A program made the translations under genes and the position numbers. A DNA stretch of 37,589 bases from Planctomycetota bacterium (GTDB lineage Bacteria > Planctomycetota > Planctomycetia > Planctomycetales > Planctomycetaceae), in assembly GCA_017859815.1 (NCBI GenBank), contig JAFMMM010000011.1, positions 1-37,589 of the forward strand, in the 5' to 3' direction. Under the pieces are notes generated by a model. That model was not told the origin of the DNA, did no database searches, and saw only the letters and a program-made list of their open reading frames with translations. How positions within the stretch are numbered: the first letter of the stretch is position 1; every line of letters begins with the position of its first letter. Of the stretch, positions 17,480 through 33,207 are shown piece after piece.

Positions 17480-19441
17480 CTACTGACCCTCTGCGGCCCC
17501 CGCTGCACTTTCCACAACAAACTCTAAAAATGACTCCGGCAGCTCTTCGCGCTGCAGTCGAACAAAAAACCGATGCGTTGACGCCCTGTACTCGACAAAG
17601 TCACTGTCTTCCAGAATTAATGCCGGCGACTCGACCAGAGTGCCGTCCAGCCACGCGGTCACTTCACCAGCCACCATTCTGGACTGCCATTCGAAAACCC
17701 AGCTGGTTGCGAACCACGAGACATTGTTAAAGACCTGCGAGATTTCTTCGCCGGTTGAGTTTAAATCAAAGTCTGCATAGTAGAACGAACTCTGCTGTCC
17801 GACGGAATCTACGGGGTTTTGTCTGCACCAGACCAGATGCAGAGCCATCTCATCAAGCAGCAACTTGGTGTCGTTGGTCACTGCAACAACCCAGTCACCA
17901 CTGGTTCCTGCCCGAGAAACAAACTGCAGATCGACACTGACATTCCCCGGAAGAGGCAGAAACGCCTGAGCGGTCAGTTCACGGGAATTCCATGGAGTCA
18001 CCGGAACCCGGACCCGCATGGAATCAGTCTGATCGACCGACAACAGACTCGGCGAAATTGCAAATGGTGGCTGCGATGACTGGCGACGCTGCACCACTGG
18101 TCTCGCTCCAAGAAACGCCGTTCGTCTCCGGACATCTTCGGCCACCTGCAGATCCACCAGCGGCCCCCCCATCTGCAGCTGAAACTGGCTGCCACCTGCA
18201 GACGTAACCTGGACGCCCGCCACCTGAACCAGACCGCCCGCGCCAATCTCTGAGATCGATTCCCAGTACAAATCACCTTCGCTGGCCGTAATGGAAAGGC
18301 CGACACCAGCCGCAAGAACAGACGTCAACAAGATGACAGAGGCAAGATACTTTGACAGAAAACCGGCAGAACGCCGTCCCAGGAAGAGAATCAACCCGGT
18401 CGCAAACAGATACGACGTGAACAGAAACAGAATTTTTTGTAAGGACGCTGCAGAACGAGGCGTCACTCCCAGCTGGACACGATTGCTGACCTGCTGCTGA
18501 TAGAGCTGTCCGCGGGCACTCGCGCTAAGCTGGCGGGCAATATCCGCCGCTGCATGATTCCCGACCGGATCGAACAGTGAACCGTCATAAAATCGAATTT
18601 CGCCCGCGCCAACAAGCAACTGACCAGCCGGTCCCGACAAAGCAGCGAATGGCAACTGATCAACAACTGCCTGTCGTAATTCATCAACCTCGGCTGGCAG
18701 AAAAACGATGCCACCGGTGGCCAGCCAGCGCCCCACGACACCCCACTGCTGCTGGTCCAGCAGATCGGCGGAGGCTTCATTGTCAAAGACCATGCCCTGA
18801 CCAGCAGTCAATGGGCCATGATGGCGGGGAAACTCCCAGGTGCGAATTGCCACCGGAACCACCGGCCGCTGTCCTGGCTGCCCGGAATCGAAACTGCCCC
18901 GAGGAAGTTCCGGAGTTGCAGCAGCAGGGCTTTCCTGTGGATCGGTTCTCGGTTCAGGGATTGAGCCAGCGAGATTGAGTGCCCGACCACCATCGTCGAC
19001 AAAAAACAAATAAGACTGGCGCTCACTGAATCCATCCACGCCATAGACCGGGAGCGTTCGCTCCCAGAACACCGTTTCACCATCGGTGAAGCGAGCCACG
19101 ATAGTAAACCAGGTTCGAAGCGCTTGAATGGTGGAGAACTTCCTGACAGCCCGAGGCCCTGCCGCAATCTGCCCCGCCCGAATCACCTCCCCCGTGTCGG
19201 GATTCTCCAGCAACAACTCTCCCTCCAGCAACTCAGCAGACTGATTTGTGACCAGCAGAGATATCGGGAGCGGACAATCCGGATCAACTCGGCCATCCCA
19301 GCCGATTGTCATTTGAATATCCAATCCAGGGTAGTCGGGCTGGTCTTCATTTCGCTGCATCTGAGCGCCCAACCTGGGCAACATGAAGAGCGCTGCACAG
19401 CTACAGACGACAAGGACATGCAGACAAAGTGAGCGAGTCAT
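17480..19441 (-). CDS. Membrane-anchored partner protein of the ABC exporter
   Basis: 653 residues, last gene of the operon. A signal peptide (about 1-26) is followed by an extracytoplasmic beta-rich region (about 40-150). Residues about 195-260 (AGQGMVFDNEASADLLDQQQ, then GRWLATGGIVFLPAE) read like a glutamine-amidotransferase-like alpha/beta fold without a catalytic Cys. Two adjacent transmembrane helices lie at about 335-385 (KILFLFTSYLFATGLILFLG and KYLASVILLTSVLAAGVGLS). A second extracytoplasmic beta-rich region follows to the end. The layout loosely recalls the GldG-type partner of ABC-2 exporters, but I cannot confirm homology. Its start overlaps the permease stop by ATGA, so translation is coupled. 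Confidence 0.85.
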   Translation of the reverse strand: MTRSLCLHVLVVCSCAALFMLPRLGAQMQRNEDQPDYPGLDIQMTIGWDGRVDPDCPLPISLLVTNQSAELLEGELLLENPDTGEVIRAGQIAAGPRAVRKFSTIQALRTWFTIVARFTDGETVFWERTLPVYGVDGFSERQSYLFFVDDGGRALNLAGSIPEPRTDPQESPAAATPELPRGSFDSGQPGQRPVVPVAIRTWEFPRHHGPLTAGQGMVFDNEASADLLDQQQWGVVGRWLATGGIVFLPAEVDELRQAVVDQLPFAALSGPAGQLLVGAGEIRFYDGSLFDPVGNHAAADIARQLSASARGQLYQQQVSNRVQLGVTPRSAASLQKILFLFTSYLFATGLILFLGRRSAGFLSKYLASVILLTSVLAAGVGLSITASEGDLYWESISEIGAGGLVQVAGVQVTSAGGSQFQLQMGGPLVDLQVAEDVRRRTAFLGARPVVQRRQSSQPPFAISPSLLSVDQTDSMRVRVPVTPWNSRELTAQAFLPLPGNVSVDLQFVSRAGTSGDWVVAVTNDTKLLLDEMALHLVWCRQNPVDSVGQQSSFYYADFDLNSTGEEISQVFNNVSWFATSWVFEWQSRMVAGEVTAWLDGTLVESPALILEDSDFVEYRASTHRFFVRLQREELPESFLEFVVESAAGAAEGQ

Positions 19442-21354
19442 TTAACCTGCTCCTGTGCCATGGTCGCGGCGGCTTCCAGCGGCGGCAGACCCGTCGCCTC
19501 AGAGACCGGTTTCAGAATGGAGTTCACCTGTAACCAGCGGAGTCGATGCCTGAGCAGAAACAGGGCCAGCAGACAGATCCCGGTATGAAAGAACCAAAAC
19601 GGCAGCATCGCGTTGCCTGTTCCATACTCTGATACCAACTCCCTGTGCAGAATCAGAAACCCCGTCAATGGTGAGATCAGCCCCGCGAACCACGAGAACC
19701 GCTCAAGCAGGGGAAAATAAGCGTCTCGAAAAACCATCACCAGAAACAGTGGCAACAACCAGACAAGAAATGCGTATGCCGGCACGACCATCATCGCCGT
19801 CAGGCTGCGACTCCAGAAAAAGTAGCCCGCGCCCTGGAGACATGCCCAGAGAGCAAAGGCGGACATCAAGTGCAGTGCCAACGCCCGAACGGCCATGTCC
19901 CGAAACTCAAGTCCCTGGTATCGAGTGAAATAACCAACTCGCTGCAGCGAACTTACAGGCTCAGGGTTCAGCCCCTGCATTGGCCCTGCTTCTGCCGGCA
20001 TGACGGTAGCTCGCCCGCTGATCTGAAGCCAGCCGGCGGAAATGCGATCAACCAAACCGAAGCTGCCTGCCCCAATCGAACAAAGAATCAGCAGAAAACA
20101 AAAACTGTCGAGGACCAGCGGTGGCAGGGCCCTTCGCCTTCCGATCGGCACTCTGACACCAGCGGCAGCACGTGAGCGACTGAAGGCGACCGCCGCCACA
20201 AGCGTCGATAAGCCCACAGTAATCTGGATCCCAATGAGGTAGTCCAGCAGAAATCCTCCCGCGTCACGGTACCCGAGATTCGCCGCAAAATGCCTGCCGC
20301 CATCTGCGTACATTCTTTGAAGCCGGGTTTCGGTCACCAAATAGTCCGCAAGAATCCCGCTGAGGCCAATTACCGAACCACAAAGAATAACCGCCAGCGG
20401 CACCCCCCAACGGAACAGCAATTCCCACGGGGCTCGAACGGCACACCGGTTTTGATAAAAGAAAGTCAACTCGCCAAGACGACGAGCATGCAGTCGGATT
20501 CGCAGCCACCGTTTTTTTGTCGAATCACCGGGGTAAACAACCTCCCCAAAGGTACTGGTCTCACGATGAACGACCGTAAGGGGACCCAGCCAAATCCCCG
20601 CGATTGCCCCGACCGTAACCAGACCCATCCCGCCGAGGCAGGACCAATAGACCGAGGCAAAACTGCGCAGGCTTTCGGCCTCCATCGCCAATGACTCAGT
20701 TGCCGTTTGATAAACAATTGCCGGGACAGGTGTCACCACAAACACCTGATAAGGAATCGGAGCAATAGCGAGCAGACTCAGCACCCCAACGCCGGAAATC
20801 ACCACCAACAGTGTGAGTAACTCATTGAAATATAACGACAGCCACAATGTCACCGCAGCCAGCATCAGGCTGTAGACATAGAGCAGCAGGAGGTTGACAA
20901 GGAAAATCGGCCATGCCGTTCCGCCAAGGAAGACCGTCATCACAATCCACGGTATCAGAAGCGAAATCACCACCAGATAGACCAGATTCTGAGACCATAG
21001 TCGTCCGGCCACAAAGCGCAATGGGGAAATCCCGCTCAATACAACCTGATCAAAATAACCCGCCAGCCGCGGTCCGAGAAAAATGTCCGTGAGTCTCAGG
21101 GGAGTGACAACTGAAATCACAAGAAATATCCCGGTGAGAATCAACAGCGAAAAGATCTCTCCCAGTTGTCGTGCACCGCCAAGGAAATACTCCACCTCCG
21201 ATGGCATCCCTAACAGCCCCAGTAACATCGCCAACAACGCACCATTCAGAATAATCGCCGCAAGGCCAAGAGCGCCGGCAGACAGCAGGAATCGGCGGTC
21301 CCGCAGATACCCGGGTGACGACTTCAGCATCTGAAACTGTTGCAGCAGCTTCAT
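19438..21354 (-). CDS. ABC-2-type exporter permease
   Basis: 638 residues with roughly a dozen hydrophobic segments in two groups. The first group (about 20-270) looks like an ABC-2 membrane module: LILTGIFLVISVVTPLRLTD, a PRLAGYFDQVVLSGISPLRF coupling loop typical of such permeases, and SLMLAAVTLWLSLYFNELLT. After a loop of about 50 residues, a second group (about 325-615) contains six or more further helices. This is about twice the length of a simple ABC-2 permease, so one chain may supply both halves of the pore. Stop and start overlap the genes on both sides (ATGA each), giving a fixed order of ATPase, permease and partner. The transported substrate is unknown. Confidence 0.9.
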   Translation of the reverse strand: MKLLQQFQMLKSSPGYLRDRRFLLSAGALGLAAIILNGALLAMLLGLLGMPSEVEYFLGGARQLGEIFSLLILTGIFLVISVVTPLRLTDIFLGPRLAGYFDQVVLSGISPLRFVAGRLWSQNLVYLVVISLLIPWIVMTVFLGGTAWPIFLVNLLLLYVYSLMLAAVTLWLSLYFNELLTLLVVISGVGVLSLLAIAPIPYQVFVVTPVPAIVYQTATESLAMEAESLRSFASVYWSCLGGMGLVTVGAIAGIWLGPLTVVHRETSTFGEVVYPGDSTKKRWLRIRLHARRLGELTFFYQNRCAVRAPWELLFRWGVPLAVILCGSVIGLSGILADYLVTETRLQRMYADGGRHFAANLGYRDAGGFLLDYLIGIQITVGLSTLVAAVAFSRSRAAAGVRVPIGRRRALPPLVLDSFCFLLILCSIGAGSFGLVDRISAGWLQISGRATVMPAEAGPMQGLNPEPVSSLQRVGYFTRYQGLEFRDMAVRALALHLMSAFALWACLQGAGYFFWSRSLTAMMVVPAYAFLVWLLPLFLVMVFRDAYFPLLERFSWFAGLISPLTGFLILHRELVSEYGTGNAMLPFWFFHTGICLLALFLLRHRLRWLQVNSILKPVSEATGLPPLEAAATMAQEQVK

Positions 21355-22289
21355 GTCACTCTCCCGGCCGTGCTGCGCATGAAAATCTGCTCCAGATTCA
21401 GAGCTTCCCGCGAGAATTCCTGAACCTGGATACGTTCCCGAATTAATGCTTCCAGCAATGAATTGCCTCCGTCATCTTCTGAACGCACCAGCAACCCCTG
21501 ATCATGAATCCGGCATTCGTGAACGCCCGGAATCGCTCGTAAAAGATCCGCCGCCTGCTGCAACACGGCACTGTCCACTCGGATGCGAACGGAAATTCCG
21601 GCTTCGACACCGGACTGCCGCAACTGTTGCAGGTCACCGTGAACAACCAGCTTCCCTGCTTCCATGATGGCAATACTGTCGCTGACGTCTTCCAGATCGG
21701 GAAGAATATGGGAACTCACGATGATGGTCTTGCCGAGAGTTGCAAGCGTGCGAATGATCGCCCGCAGTTCGTTTCTGGCCCGCGGATCCAGCCCACTCGC
21801 CGGCTCATCCAGCAGCAGCACATCCGGGTCGTGCAACAGTGTTCTCGCCAGCAACAGCCGCTGGCGATTTCCCGTCGATAACCCGCGCACAGCGACGTCA
21901 GGTCTGGCCGCCAGATCTGTCAGCTCTTTCACATCGCGAATTCGCTGCGGCAAGTCTGCCGTTGGAACCTGATACAGCGAACCGAAGTACTCGAGATATT
22001 CGTGAATTGTCAGGCCCCGCGGATAACCGAATTCCGCGGGCATGAACCCCAGCATGCGCCGCACCTGTCGAGGATCCCGCAGGACTGATCGTCCGCCGAT
22101 CAGTACATCACCCGCATCAGGCATCGACAGTGTGGCCAGCATGCGCAGGAGAGACGTCTTGCCAGCGCCGTTGGGACCAATTAACCCGAGTGTCGTTCCG
22201 GCAGCGACCTGCAAACTGACATCGTCAACAGCAACAAGCTGATCAAATCGTCGAGTCAGATTGCTTATTTTGATTGTTGTCACAGCCAT
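21351..22289 (-). CDS. ABC transporter ATP-binding protein
   Basis: 312 residues. It powers the adjacent permease by ATP hydrolysis at the inner membrane. Walker A is GPNGAGKT (38-45); the Q-loop is FMPAEFGYP. The signature loop reads GLSTGNRQRLLLARTLL instead of LSGGQ, a variation usual in ABC-2 exporters. Walker B is VLLLDEPASGLDP and the switch His is in IIVSSHILPDLEDV. The last 90 residues form the C-terminal domain typical of DrrA/GldA-like ATPases. Start: ATG 22289, or possibly GTG 22283, which has AGGA 6 bases upstream; a TTG at 22313 is less likely. It follows the lipoprotein gene after 34 bases. Confidence 0.96.
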   Translation of the reverse strand: MAVTTIKISNLTRRFDQLVAVDDVSLQVAAGTTLGLIGPNGAGKTSLLRMLATLSMPDAGDVLIGGRSVLRDPRQVRRMLGFMPAEFGYPRGLTIHEYLEYFGSLYQVPTADLPQRIRDVKELTDLAARPDVAVRGLSTGNRQRLLLARTLLHDPDVLLLDEPASGLDPRARNELRAIIRTLATLGKTIIVSSHILPDLEDVSDSIAIMEAGKLVVHGDLQQLRQSGVEAGISVRIRVDSAVLQQAADLLRAIPGVHECRIHDQGLLVRSEDDGGNSLLEALIRERIQVQEFSREALNLEQIFMRSTAGRVT

Positions 22290-22323
22290 TCCTGAATCCG
22301 ACCGTCTCCCCAACCGGCGGGGC

Positions 22324-22986
22324 TCACTTCACAGGGTCGGGCTGAACCGTTGACGTCTCATTCGACGCATCTGCAGGATCAACCGGCGACTGAGAGGCCG
22401 CAGCATTACCCGCAGACAGGCCACCAGAAAAAACGAGGGACTCCGGATGCTCCTGCACCCACTCCCCGTATGTTGTACGAACGAAATTCAGGTCTTCGTA
22501 CGGCAGCTCTGCAGAATCCTGCGGAAACATCTGCCCGGAATGCAGCAGCAGCATTCGGCCGTCACTGAAACCGCCGGTCCGCAGTTCCAGGGCCTCTCCA
22601 CCACGACCGGCAAACACGCGCACGGTATCTGTTCGATCACACCACGTAACACAGTAAGGTCGGGCCGTTCGGTTCTCATTCAGCACATGAGCTTCCAAAT
22701 CGCTCATCGCTCGCTGAAGGTAACAGCGTGCACTTCCATCGATGACAACGCCGATGACAGCTTCGGCAGGATTAAGTGAGACCTCCGCCGCCGGTGCCAG
22801 CCTGGGGTCCACGTTCGCCGGCATGATAAACGGCGTACTTTCTGGTCCCGCACCAGCCATGGGCATCATCATTGGTGCGTCAATGGGAGGTAAGGGCTGC
22901 TCCGTTTGCTCGCAACCTGAAGCGACCAAAAAAAATACGAGCCCGACGTGTCGGACCCGTATCAATACGCGTTGGGATACCTGCAT
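22324..22986 (-). CDS. Lipoprotein with DUF3179-like domain
   Basis: 220 residues. A basic start and hydrophobic stretch end in LVASGC, with the candidate lipidated Cys at 25; a Pro/Met-rich linker (PPIDAPMMMPMAG) follows. Residues about 75-160 resemble DUF3179: VIGVVIDGSARCYLQRAMSD, then RPYCVTWCDRTDTVRVFAGR. The family's usual YCPLCGT Cys cluster is reduced to CVTWC, so any metal or redox role is uncertain. The C-terminal 35 residues are low-complexity (Ala/Ser/Asp). The ATG at 22986 is preferred to a TTG at 23010 because it gives a proper signal peptide. It is the second gene of the operon, 24 bases after the secreted 642-residue protein, and is probably anchored in a membrane facing the periplasm. 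Confidence 0.82.
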   Translation of the reverse strand: MQVSQRVLIRVRHVGLVFFLVASGCEQTEQPLPPIDAPMMMPMAGAGPESTPFIMPANVDPRLAPAAEVSLNPAEAVIGVVIDGSARCYLQRAMSDLEAHVLNENRTARPYCVTWCDRTDTVRVFAGRGGEALELRTGGFSDGRMLLLHSGQMFPQDSAELPYEDLNFVRTTYGEWVQEHPESLVFSGGLSAGNAAASQSPVDPADASNETSTVQPDPVK

Positions 22987-23010
22987 GGGCGTTCTTTGCC
23001 AAATAAACAA

Positions 23011-24939
23011 TCAGTCTCCGCCGAAGCGGGTTGCGAGCAAACGAGCAAACATTTTCATGAATGCCTGCTCAAGACTCACTCGCATCTTAGCACCGGTTTC
23101 CGTCAAACGCGACTCAATCTGGATTCGCGAGTCGCCCTCAGCCAGCGTCTCACGAGCGATTGCGTTTCGCTGCTGTGCTCGCTCGCGGAACCGGGCCATC
23201 TGCTCATCGCTGGGTCTGCCACGACGCCCACGACCGGCGTTCTCGCCTGGAGCATCAGGCGTTGTCTGGACCGACTCCAACTGTGCAGACGTGCCTGCAG
23301 CTTCCCGCTCCTCCCGAACTACTGCCCGTTCTTCGCGACCTGGAGCACTGCCGCGTTCCATCATGCTGACAAGATCATTCACATTCACAATCACCCGCAG
23401 GTTGGAGATGTTTCGCAGGTCCTCACCGGATTGCGTGGATTCTTCCAGTTGATCCATGACGGATTTCAGCATCGACAGCGATTCCGAGCCACCCACAGCA
23501 CCCCAAATGGCCGTTCCTCCAATACCGACGGTGATCCCAACATCCTCGCCGAAGACTTCCATGGCACCGCGACTCTGATTGTCAAAGATGAGCCGGTGCA
23601 TGGTAACACCAAGGTGCTCGTCCATCGCCAGTTGCAGCTCACCTGCCCTGTCAAACACATCGGTCTGCCGAAGCCGGCCCAGCAGGTCCATCATTCCCGT
23701 ATTAATGGCGTCGCCGTCCTGAACGCGTACAGCCCAGATGATGGCAAGCTTGTCAGACGCGTCACGGTAAAACTGAGCGAAGACATCCATATGTCCTTCG
23801 TTAATCGTGGACTGCAGTGCCGTTAAAGCCTGACCAATCGGAGAGAATTCATCGGGAGCCAGTCCCAGCCCATTCTCTTCCAGCAGCCGGCCAGACTCCA
23901 TCCGCACGCCTTCCACCATCTCGGTGTAGGCCTCGCGCTCACGCTCTGCAATCATGCTGGAAAGGGACAGGGAAACCATCGCCTCTTCATCCAGCAGAGG
24001 AATGAAGTAGCTGGGACGATCAGCCGAACCCAGCATTTCCTTCAACATTTGCGAACCCTTCAGGGCATCGACGACGAGATCAAGGTTGACCATCTCGTCC
24101 TCTTCTGAGACCTGAATGCCAAATGTGAGTTTCTGGCAGTCCATCATCAGCATCTTCAGAGCAGCCAGAGCACGGTCACCCTCCGACCGACGGATTCGAT
24201 AAGCTCCGTCTGATTCTTCATTTCTCTGCTGCAGTTGGGTGGAAATGCCCGTGTTGATCAATCCATAGAGCAGCGTCCGCGTGGCGACAGGAATTGCTTC
24301 CACGTCAAGCCGCACCGCCATGTCATACTCGCTGGAAACTCCGTTCAGCAGTTCGTCAGGCCGAGGAAACTCTCGATCAAGCATCGTTGCATCGACATCA
24401 TTGCCCAGCGGGACAAATGCATAGCCGCCGGACAGCAGCATCGGGATCGTGCGGTTTGGACCGATGATCTCGTACATTCCGAGGTCTTCATCTTCAGCAC
24501 GAATCACGACCGGTGCTTTCTCGATCAGTACTGTCGCTGATTCGATGGAGTCAACCGGGGCAAATGCGGTGAATTCAGGAATCGGTGGAAATGCCAGAGG
24601 CAGATAAGCCATCACCCCAAATGGTTGCTGACGATTGAATCCATCGAGATTGTTCAGGGTGTCAGCAAGGAGTTGCTCAAGTCGCTCATAAACCTCAGGT
24701 CGCTCCGCGATATCGAACAGAAACTTCGCCTTTTCGAGCGCCTGGTCAGCGTTCGCGAAAGAGATCGTCAACAGCGGTCGGCTTCCGGTATTAATCAGCT
24801 CCAGCGGTGGGGAAAATGAGTCTGCCCCCTCATCCTGCGCTGAAACTGGCATCGACAAAGTCAGGCAGAGCAGACAGCTCCATGCTGCACCCCACTTGAT
24901 TGCCCTAATTCGACGTGTCTGACTCAATTGGAACTGCAT
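23011..24939 (-). CDS. Secreted protein of unknown function, first gene of the ABC operon
   Basis: 642 residues with a signal peptide ending in LTLSMPVSAQD (about residue 35). The rest is a long alternating helix/strand protein with no transmembrane segment. Passages such as LLTISFANADQALEKAKFLF and FGVMAYLPLAFPPIPEFTAF read like planctomycete periplasmic proteins related to DUF3352-type domains, but the match is only by impression. A charged low-complexity stretch (about 545-600, Arg/Glu/Gly-rich, with GRGRRGRPSDEQMARFRER) precedes a final helical segment. GGAAGA lies 6 bases before the ATG at 24939; a GTG 8 codons upstream is unsupported. As first gene it may supply the substrate-facing or regulatory component of the exporter; this is inferred from operon context only. 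Confidence 0.85.
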   Translation of the reverse strand: MQFQLSQTRRIRAIKWGAAWSCLLCLTLSMPVSAQDEGADSFSPPLELINTGSRPLLTISFANADQALEKAKFLFDIAERPEVYERLEQLLADTLNNLDGFNRQQPFGVMAYLPLAFPPIPEFTAFAPVDSIESATVLIEKAPVVIRAEDEDLGMYEIIGPNRTIPMLLSGGYAFVPLGNDVDATMLDREFPRPDELLNGVSSEYDMAVRLDVEAIPVATRTLLYGLINTGISTQLQQRNEESDGAYRIRRSEGDRALAALKMLMMDCQKLTFGIQVSEEDEMVNLDLVVDALKGSQMLKEMLGSADRPSYFIPLLDEEAMVSLSLSSMIAEREREAYTEMVEGVRMESGRLLEENGLGLAPDEFSPIGQALTALQSTINEGHMDVFAQFYRDASDKLAIIWAVRVQDGDAINTGMMDLLGRLRQTDVFDRAGELQLAMDEHLGVTMHRLIFDNQSRGAMEVFGEDVGITVGIGGTAIWGAVGGSESLSMLKSVMDQLEESTQSGEDLRNISNLRVIVNVNDLVSMMERGSAPGREERAVVREEREAAGTSAQLESVQTTPDAPGENAGRGRRGRPSDEQMARFRERAQQRNAIARETLAEGDSRIQIESRLTETGAKMRVSLEQAFMKMFARLLATRFGGD

Positions 24940-25505
24940 GGCTGTCTTCCGAAACGAATTCACTGCTCTTCACCACTCACACGAATCATCCGCCTCAAAA
25001 CATATGAGACAAAATGCGTTCACTGACCGATTGATCTTGTGTTCAGAAATACTGGTCTCTCACCACGGGGGCTTGCAGCCGGCACTCCCTAATTCAATCT
25101 GAGTCACCGCAGCAGCCTGCTGTATTTTTCGCGTCCTGCTGCTGTTTCCTGGCATAAAAACTGCGTGCCGCTGTTTTCTGCACAAAACGCCGTTCTCTCG
25201 AGGCGAATTTCGCGGCGCATACCGTCCGGCTGCTGCAGAATAGACGGTTCCCCCCCTGCTTAAACCGTTCTGCAGCGGAAAAGGGCCGCTCCGGATGCAT
25301 CGCTCCGCCAATTTCCGGGAAAAATCGGTCGTGAGAGTGCCGTACAGCACATCAGGCTCCTCGATCTGCCCATATTTTTCGCCCCGGCCACCGCTTGACT
25401 CTGACCTTCATCTCGGTGCGAAACAACCGGGGCCACGTGGAATTTGATGCAAGAACAGGCGAATCCTGCCGAGATTCGGCTCGACGGCTGCCGTTTCCGC
25501 AGGAA

Positions 25506-29889: not shown

Positions 29890-32800
29890 ATGTCCACAAT
29901 TGACGAAACGGTACCAGCCGATCTTCCGCAGCTGATTGACATCATTGCGACTCAACCTGGTTTTCCAGACATCGTTGATGCTCTGCAGGCCGGCAACAGT
30001 GCCGCGATCGATGGAATCTGGGGCTCTTCCTGCGCGCTGACAGTGACGGCTCTTGTTCAGCGGCTGCAGAGACCTCTTTGCCTCTGCGTGCGACATTCCA
30101 TCCGGGATGCTGAAGAGTTCGCCGAAGAACTGGCCTCTGTTTCCAGCCTTGCCGTGCAGCTGTTTCCGGCGTGGACGGGCATTCCGGAAGAGGACTCGGC
30201 CGCCGATCCGGTCGCTGCTGGTCGTTTGAAAGTACTGCGAGCGATCGACTCCGGGGAAACCGCTCCCGACGTCATCGTCGCCTGCCTGCCCGCGCTCATG
30301 CAGCCCGTTCCTGACCGGCAGACCCTCGAAGGCTCAATCCGCTCAATTCGCTCTGGCCAGGAAATCGATCTGAACGAAGTTTCAGAATGGCTGATGGCTC
30401 AGGGATTTGAGCGTGTTACAGCCGTTGAATTGCCGGGCGAATTTGCCATCCACGGTGGTATTCTGGATTTGTTCCCGGCCACCGAACGTGATCCGATTCG
30501 CGTTGAGCTTTTCGGGGACGAGATCGAATCCATTCGCTCCTTCGATGCAGAAACACAGCGGCGACTGGCCGAGCTCAACCAGGTCGACCTGCTGACTCCT
30601 CGTACCGAAAGTTCCTCGAGGAATTCCGGGTTCGCCAGTTTTTCAGCGTCACTGCTGGACTACCTGCCGGAGCGAAGTTTTACAACGATCTCAGATCTTC
30701 AGCATGTCGTCTCAGAAGGCCGACTGTATTCGCAACGAATGTCCGATCCCCGCGGGTTATTCTCGGCGGATTCCGCGATGGCACGGCTGACGGCAATTCC
30801 CTCTGTGACAATCGATGCCCTGGGGGTGGACAGCTATGAAACATCCTGCCATATCAGTATGGAGCCGCTGGAACGCTTTTCCGGCAATCGCCGTGATGCA
30901 CTGCTGGAACTTTCGCTGCTGCTGGGAAGTACTGATCGAGCGTTGCTGTGCTGCCATAGCGATGGAGAACTGAAACGACTGAGAGAGCTCATCAGTGAAA
31001 CAGATTCTGCCCACCAGACCACGCTAAAGAACAGCGTTTCACTGACAGTCGGCGGGCTCCGTAAGGGCTTCCGGCTGCCGGATCGAAAACTGGTCGTCCT
31101 CAGCGACAGCGAGCTGTTGTCACGAACCCCGGTCCGCAGAACGGCTCGGCAAAGAACAGCGGATTCACGGGCGATCGACAGCTTCCTCGATCTGCGCGAA
31201 GGTAGCCTGGTTGTTCATGTTTCACACGGAATTGCTCGCTATCGCGGGATGAAGATGGTTCACAGCGAAGGTGTTCAGGAAGAACATCTGCTGCTGGAAT
31301 TTCGCGACGAAGTAATTGTCTATGTGCCAGTGTCGCTGATTCACCTGGTTCAGAAGTATGTTGGACCGGCAAAAACGACACCGGAACTGACGAAGTACGG
31401 CGGCAACTCCTGGCAGAAAAAGAAAGATCAGGTGTCCTCTGCTGTTTCTGACATGGCATCCGACATGTTGAAACTTCAGGCAGAAAGAAACTCGCGACCG
31501 GGACTGATTTCTCAGGCAGATGGCCAGCTGCAGGAGGAGTTTGAAACGGCCTTTCCATGGCAGGAAACACCGGATCAGGACACAGCCATTCGGGAACTGA
31601 AGAACGATATGGAATCGCCGCTCCCCATGGATCGACTGATCTGTGGCGATGTCGGGTTCGGGAAAACCGAAGTCGCCATGCGCGCGGCTTTCAAAGCTGT
31701 CGACAATGGCCGACAGGTTGCAGTGCTTGTCCCAACAACCGTGCTTGCGGAACAGCACTTCCGGACCTTCTCCCAGCGGATGAGCGAGTTTCCGGTGACC
31801 GTGGAAATGCTCTCTCGCTTTCGCACGGACGCCGAACAGCGCGCCATCCTCGAAAAAGCCGCAGCGGGGGAGGTGGATGTCCTGATCGGCACGCACCGAC
31901 TCGTTTCAAAAGATGTGCACTTCCGCGATCTTGGCCTGCTGGTCATCGATGAGGAACAAAAATTTGGCGTCCGCGTAAAAGAGCGGTTGAAGACGATGCG
32001 TGCCGAAGTTGACGTTCTCACCCTGACTGCGACACCCATCCCTCGAACGCTGCACCTGTCTCTGCTGGGGATTCGTGATATCAGCAGCCTGACAACTCCG
32101 CCTCGCGAGCGTGTTCCCATTGAAACCCGCGTATGTCGCTTCGACGAGAAACTGATCCGCAGTGCCATGCTGCGAGAATTGAATCGTGGCGGGCAGATTT
32201 ACTTTGTTCACAATCGCGTCCACGATATCGAGAAGATCGCCATTCGACTGCGGCAGATTGTTCCCGAGGCCACCGTCACCATCGCTCACGGCCAAATGCA
32301 GGAACATGAACTGGAGCGGGCGATGGTCGACTTCGTGAATGGGCGAGCGGACATCCTGCTGGCAACGACCATCATCGAAAGCGGACTGGATATCCCCAAT
32401 GCGAACACCATGTTCATTCACCAGGCCGATATCTACGGTCTGTCTGATCTCCACCAGCTACGCGGAAGAGTTGGTCGTGATCGCCACCGAGCTTACTGCT
32501 ATCTGCTGCTGGAAGAAGGTCGGGTTGTCACAACCAAAGCAACTCGACGCCTGAAAGCGATTGAGGAATACAGCGAACTGGGAGCCGGATTTCGCATCGC
32601 CATGAGAGACCTCGAAATCCGAGGCGCGGGAAATATCCTCGGCACTGAACAGAGCGGAAACATTGCTGCTGTTGGTTACGAACTCTATTGTCAGCTGCTC
32701 GAAAATGCCGTTCGATCGCTGAAGAAACAACCGCTGCGATATCAGCCGCACTGCCGCATCGACCTTCCCGTTCCCTGTTTCATCCCGGACAGATACGTTC

Positions 32801-33207
32801 CCGATCAAAAACTGAAGATTGAGGTTTACAGACGACTGTCACAGTGCAATACGGTTGCTCGAGTTGAAGAGCTGATGACGGAACTGCGCGATCGTTTTGG
32901 ACCGGTACCGGCTGCTGCACGACTGCTGCTGAATCTGCGAGAACTCAGTATTCGAGCGATCAGCTGGAAAATCGACGTCATCCGACTTGAGGATGGATTT
33001 GCTGCGCTGCGATACCGCGACGCCAAACTCATCGGCATTCTCTCTCATCTGCATCGCGGGCACCTGCGGGTCGTTGATCAGCATGAGGCATACTGGCCGC
33101 TGGAGTCGGCTGAAGACGACGGCGGAAGCGTATTGCAGGAGTTGCTGGAAGCACTGCGAATCGCAGATCCCGGACAAGATCAGGACTCCGCTGCCGAAAC
33201 CTCCTGA
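29890..33207 (+). CDS. mfd: Transcription-repair coupling factor Mfd
   Basis: 1105 residues, within the normal range. It displaces RNA polymerase stalled at DNA lesions and recruits UvrA for nucleotide-excision repair. Domains in order: the UvrB-homology region (GEFAIHGGILDLFPATERDP, about 180-240), the RNA-polymerase-interacting domain (SLVVHVSHGIARYRGMKMV, about 438-500), and a RecG-like SF2 motor with Walker A GDVGFGKTEVAMRAAF, motif II as DEEQKFGVRVKE, motif III LTATPIPRTLH, and motifs V-VI around ATTIIESGLDIPNANTMF and QLRGRVGRD. The C-terminal TRCF domain follows (QKLKIEVYRRLSQC region onward). The start ATG has no Shine-Dalgarno sequence. Its last 28 bases overlap the 3' end of the convergent condensation-domain gene. 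Confidence 0.98.
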   Translation: MSTIDETVPADLPQLIDIIATQPGFPDIVDALQAGNSAAIDGIWGSSCALTVTALVQRLQRPLCLCVRHSIRDAEEFAEELASVSSLAVQLFPAWTGIPEEDSAADPVAAGRLKVLRAIDSGETAPDVIVACLPALMQPVPDRQTLEGSIRSIRSGQEIDLNEVSEWLMAQGFERVTAVELPGEFAIHGGILDLFPATERDPIRVELFGDEIESIRSFDAETQRRLAELNQVDLLTPRTESSSRNSGFASFSASLLDYLPERSFTTISDLQHVVSEGRLYSQRMSDPRGLFSADSAMARLTAIPSVTIDALGVDSYETSCHISMEPLERFSGNRRDALLELSLLLGSTDRALLCCHSDGELKRLRELISETDSAHQTTLKNSVSLTVGGLRKGFRLPDRKLVVLSDSELLSRTPVRRTARQRTADSRAIDSFLDLREGSLVVHVSHGIARYRGMKMVHSEGVQEEHLLLEFRDEVIVYVPVSLIHLVQKYVGPAKTTPELTKYGGNSWQKKKDQVSSAVSDMASDMLKLQAERNSRPGLISQADGQLQEEFETAFPWQETPDQDTAIRELKNDMESPLPMDRLICGDVGFGKTEVAMRAAFKAVDNGRQVAVLVPTTVLAEQHFRTFSQRMSEFPVTVEMLSRFRTDAEQRAILEKAAAGEVDVLIGTHRLVSKDVHFRDLGLLVIDEEQKFGVRVKERLKTMRAEVDVLTLTATPIPRTLHLSLLGIRDISSLTTPPRERVPIETRVCRFDEKLIRSAMLRELNRGGQIYFVHNRVHDIEKIAIRLRQIVPEATVTIAHGQMQEHELERAMVDFVNGRADILLATTIIESGLDIPNANTMFIHQADIYGLSDLHQLRGRVGRDRHRAYCYLLLEEGRVVTTKATRRLKAIEEYSELGAGFRIAMRDLEIRGAGNILGTEQSGNIAAVGYELYCQLLENAVRSLKKQPLRYQPHCRIDLPVPCFIPDRYVPDQKLKIEVYRRLSQCNTVARVEELMTELRDRFGPVPAAARLLLNLRELSIRAISWKIDVIRLEDGFAALRYRDAKLIGILSHLHRGHLRVVDQHEAYWPLESAEDDGGSVLQELLEALRIADPGQDQDSAAETS

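Follow-up and report, generated by a model that had tools for sequence, protein, structure and literature searches.

The window, which is the whole stretch of 37,589 nucleotides that was analyzed, contains five consecutive open reading frames (ORFs), here designated A to E, which are all located on the minus strand according to the ORF list (Table 1). Counted from the likely ATG starts, A and B are separated by 24 nt and B and C by 34 nt. C and D, as well as D and E, overlap by an ATGA, which reads GTGACATGAAG at the first and TTAAATGACTC at the second of these junctions. This layout of same-strand genes with two short gaps and two overlaps had been reported in the first-pass annotation and was found in full in the ORFs.

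Table 1. Features of the five-gene run and its surroundings, with positions in the window.
Feature	Position	Strand	Start codon	Description	Basis
A	23011..24963	-	ATG 24939	Secreted protein, 650 aa; assigned to the divergent autotransporter locus	
B	22324..23010	-	ATG 22986	DUF3179 lipoprotein; lineage-specific neighbour, non-core	PF11376 1.1e-12
C	21351..22313	-	ATG probably 22289	ABC-2-type ATPase	PF00005 1.1e-26, PF13732 DrrA1-3_C
D	19438..21354	-		ABC-2-like permease, 638 aa, predicted 12 helices, linker NSTFGEVV..GDSKRKR	Model and alignments
E	17480..19441	-		Partner protein: signal peptide, Ig-like, alpha/beta, two-helix hairpin, and beta domains	Model
Terminator-like hairpin with U8	22934..22963	-		Inside the 5' end of B (signal-peptide coding part)	
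Inverse-autotransporter-like protein with beta-helix	25666..29751	+			PF11924 9.5e-9, PF13229 2.9e-9; synteny with A

Gene A is found in all 18 genomes of the genus, and relatives of it occur in 92 of the 101 genomes of the family sample. The protein matched no family in Pfam or NCBIfam, and neither PADLOC nor PDB sequence searches gave a usable match. In most genus genomes and also in other genera, A is divergent to the inverse-autotransporter gene, whereby close A orthologues from other genera face this same gene without B, C, D, or E. Where C-D-E is not located behind A, other genes usually come next, often past a terminator that belongs to A itself. Judging from this gene order, the conserved partner of A is the divergent autotransporter gene, and A may serve the autotransporter. 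A and the autotransporter gene constitute a conserved pair, and the gene that follows the latter (29890-33207, plus strand) keeps its position in many genus genomes, so the conserved block extends past these two genes.

The product of B passes the curated PF11376 cut-off in Pfam (48.5 bits vs. 27, E 1.1e-12), whereby the alignment covers only the first half of the DUF3179 profile. Within the domain of this short lipoprotein, a single cysteine (C116 in the alignment) is invariant. DUF3179 has been named among the selenoprotein families with a UxxC/T motif in two reviews (PMC9312934; PMC13188914), which is no more than a hint at a redox role for B. DUF3179-type relatives of B were found in 30 of the 101 family genomes, where they are scattered and have varied neighbours. 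Within the genus, B follows A in five genomes, and in two of these (G435 and G437) C-D-E does not adjoin.

Genes C, D, and E show a distribution of their own. D is present in 9 of the 18 genus genomes, in 8 of the 101 genomes of the family sample (one match being very weak), and in 20 of the 343 genomes of the phylum sample, and E was detected in 7 and 10 genomes of the latter two samples, respectively. In all eight E-bearing genomes outside the family (phylum sample), D is located just upstream of E on the same contig and strand, and E follows D in the loci examined. The order and strand of C-D-E are kept in about 20 loci, which come from Planctomycetota and also from Verrucomicrobiota; across these loci, C and D usually share an ATGA overlap, D and E overlap or abut in most cases, and the neighbours outside the trio vary. 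Thus, C-D-E is a conserved unit with a patchy occurrence in Planctomycetota and Verrucomicrobiota. A search of viral contigs found none that encodes D. When all genus copies of D were constrained to one group in the D tree, this topology was not rejected (p-AU 0.198); we therefore do not claim that C-D-E was acquired repeatedly in the genus, the tree being compatible with one acquisition as well as with several.

The first-pass annotation had taken the five genes as one unit, which was not borne out by the gene order of relatives, as the leading genes A and B are absent from the C-D-E locus in most of them. C-D-E is located directly behind A-B in only three of the nine genus carriers, namely in the window and its two close relatives G432 and G433, which are also the only genus genomes that have the autotransporter gene and A to E together, and beyond the genus no inspected locus has the five-gene order. 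A and C-D-E are found at separate places in G434, G428, G438, and G439; for G436 and G440, whose contigs break off near A or C, the separation is deduced from the near relatives G434, G428, and G439. A five-gene unit is thus not general. On comparative grounds, A and B stand outside the C-D-E system, since A pairs with the autotransporter gene, B is scattered, and C-D-E has unrelated neighbours elsewhere. Tight same-strand spacing can therefore mislead, given that the comparison makes two of the five genes bystanders.

It could still be that A to E form a single envelope system in which A and B are dedicated secreted partners of an exporter. This would fit the close packing of the genes in the window, G432, and G433 (about 4-24 nt between A and B and about 34-83 nt between B and C), as well as the fact that the order was kept among these three genomes while their D proteins diverged to about 50% identity. 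Such persistence makes some joint selection possible, and a clade-specific joint A-B-C-D-E unit may exist in the window and the two related genomes, which form one clade in the A tree (support 100/100) with the A-B genomes nearby. As an account of the system as a whole, however, we consider this improbable: A mostly occurs without C-D-E nearby and C-D-E mostly without A, B follows A in G435 and G437 with C-D-E elsewhere, and A is followed by a terminator of its own in several relatives and by a strong hairpin in the window. The simplest history would lead from A alone via A-B to A-B-C-D-E, which requires either a loss of B in the G434 group or two arrivals of B.

The hairpin in the window lies about 47-48 nt past the stop codon of A, inside the start of B, and consists of 13 pairs followed by U8. 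Its folding energy is -18.5 kcal/mol, which was equalled by none of 200 shuffled sequences. In relatives, eight A loci carry a hairpin of at most -15 kcal/mol with a T-rich tail some 25-80 nt behind A; as background, of 200 random 200-nt stretches from the window only 5 reached even -8 kcal/mol. In the relatives, the terminator of A lies in non-coding DNA, whereas the window hairpin is located at the same distance but within B. In G432 the hairpin after A is weaker, and in G433 no such hairpin was found after A. The presence of an A-type terminator hairpin inside B means that transcription of B to E from the A promoter may be partial or nil in the window, and the predicted structure argues against one simple A-to-E transcript. 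Overall, the region is probably a junction of two independent modules, i.e., A together with the autotransporter gene, and a self-contained ABC-2-type set C-D-E that is located behind A-B in one small branch.

The first-pass annotation had called the ATPase standard and the permease double-length, the latter in agreement with the 12 long helices of the model. Pfam identifies C as an ABC ATPase whose C-terminal domain is DrrA-like; its best NCBIfam models are DrrA-, GldA-, and NodI-like, all of them scoring under the curated cut-offs. A defence role for C is not claimed, as its PADLOC matches reflect a generic ATPase. D matched no family in Pfam or NCBIfam and gave no usable match in PADLOC or PDB sequence searches, and the Pfam ABC-2 membrane models did not match the window D or 18 relatives up to an E-value of 1. 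The structural model of D (pLDDT 74.8) shows a helix at residues 14-23, six long helices, a low-confidence linker at 260-303, and six further long helices. Between the second and third long helices there is a short helix (97-106), which spans most of a YFDQ.VLSGISP motif that is near-invariant in the alignments and is likely to be the coupling helix. According to the model, the first half of D appears to have the helix order that is expected of an ABC-2 permease, as in ABCG-type transporters. The fold matches of D, NosY and ABCG transporters among them, are weak and non-significant (best E 0.11), with a TM-score of 0.41-0.48 for NosY when normalized by target length. A comparison of the two halves of D by hhalign did not reveal a sequence repeat (probability 0.3%), and the alignments place the conserved motif NSTFGEVV..GDSKRKR in the cytosolic linker. 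D is tentatively assigned as ABC-2-type from the helix order and these weak fold matches. For the set as a whole, the match of C to PF00005 and the fixed C-D order fit an ABC ATPase that is encoded with its permease.

The model of E (pLDDT 81.7, pTM 0.81) consists of an N-terminal helix, an Ig-like domain (40-131), an alpha/beta domain (about 143-307), two helices (328-354 and 359-386) joined by a four-residue turn, and beta domains (389-629). This bears out the earlier description of two helices between large domains, the flanking parts being beta-rich. Because E has a signal peptide and the turn of its hairpin is short and positively charged, its large domains are predicted to be on the periplasmic side. 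Neither E alone nor its alignment gave a usable match in Pfam, NCBIfam, PADLOC, or PDB sequence searches. It had also been proposed that E has an inactive amidotransferase-like fold. An alpha/beta domain is indeed present in the model, and among the alignment columns that are invariant across 18 E proteins there is no Cys, His, or Glu, so that the class I glutamine amidotransferase triad is not conserved; the lack of any invariant catalytic residue makes an enzymatic role of this domain unlikely. Against the proposal, no amidotransferase is among the 50 listed PDB fold matches of E, and an inactive amidotransferase-like domain is thus a plausible but unproven reading of the model. The top fold matches of E were mu-homology domains of clathrin adaptors (probability 1.0); given target-normalized TM-scores of at most 0.40 and an rmsd of mostly more than 10 Å, we rejected homology to clathrin adaptors and read these matches as a common beta-sandwich shape.

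With regard to known systems, C-D-E resembles GldA-GldF-GldG in that an ATPase, an ABC-2-like permease, and an extracytoplasmic alpha/beta partner are encoded in one gene set. It might therefore be a divergent member of this group, with E as a rearranged GldG (ABC_transp_aux), for which also the resemblance of C to GldA could be cited, as well as the only local match between E and GldG-like proteins, a short one at 'L..Q......W...GG'. However, E lacks PF09822, D has 12 helices, and the domains of E flank a helix hairpin. PF09822 was detected in 20 of the 21 genomes searched; in the own genome the search missed E and found, on contig C546 (L216), a fusion of a GldF-like permease with a GldG-like protein that carries PF09822. 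Moreover, hhalign gave only 1-3% probability for E against GldG, and the domain order differs, so that the assignment fails by sequence and is in our view highly improbable. Given the lack of PF09822 in E and the presence of a GldF-GldG-type fusion elsewhere in the genome, C-D-E was not filed under GldA-F-G.

NosF-NosY-NosD likewise combines an ATPase, an ABC-2 permease, and an extracytoplasmic partner, and NosY is one of the weak fold matches of D mentioned above. Following this example, C-D-E could be a complex that transmits force without a transported substrate, which would suit the large extracytoplasmic domains of E and the hairpin as its only anchor in the model. Yet NosD is a beta-helix and E is not, for which reason C-D-E was not filed under NosF-Y-D; furthermore, there is no nitrous-oxide reductase context and no cuproenzyme neighbour at C-D-E, and the fold matches of D are non-significant. 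We regard pure force transmission as possible, if on balance doubtful. To the DrrAB/NodIJ-type ABC-2 exporters there is a likeness in C, which scores best against DrrA, GldA, and NodI and has the DrrA C-terminal domain, but C stays under the curated cut-offs, D has no Pfam ABC-2 match, and E is a dedicated partner.

By analogy with GldA-F-G and NosF-Y-D, C-D-E most likely acts as an ATP-driven ABC-2 exporter or as a force-transmitting complex, two alternatives that are inseparable with the present data. What was seen directly are the gene content, the linkage, the overlaps, and the domain layout of the models. From these it can be envisaged that a pair of C ATPases drives a single D chain bearing two six-helix halves, and that D would be co-translated with E, which would be anchored by its helix hairpin with large, presumably periplasmic domains on either side. 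The ATP-driven movement of D might then either export a substrate, perhaps an amphiphilic envelope compound, that is handed to E, or move E itself.

The suggestion of a distinct export or envelope system in the first-pass annotation thus holds for C-D-E, which is distinct and uncharacterized, its permease being double-length and its partner protein unusual, but not for A and B, which are not members. C-D-E appears to be a true variant among the ABC-2 systems, and no description of it was found in family libraries nor in the literature retrieved by a limited search. We see about an even chance that it represents a family of ABC-2 systems in Planctomycetota and Verrucomicrobiota that has three parts and has not been described before. 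Its permease would have 12 helices and a cytosolic signature that is near-invariant, and its obligate partner would be anchored by a hairpin and act on the envelope with its periplasmic domains, through export or ATP-driven movement. It is a compact transporter set of which general family libraries recognize only the ATPase, in bacteria about whose envelope little is known, and experiments could be aimed at the linker that is conserved in D and at the constant D-E pairing.

Two further C-D-E loci showed peculiarities. In G006 (L012, 7427-11316), C, D, and E are apparently frameshifted, which points either to a decayed copy or to assembly errors. In G034, two ORFs near C-D-E (L014, 6282-7292 and 13362-14282) both start with MPIGICPTVDFVFKLLFGNPKHSRIA and possibly belong to a mobile-element nuclease family.
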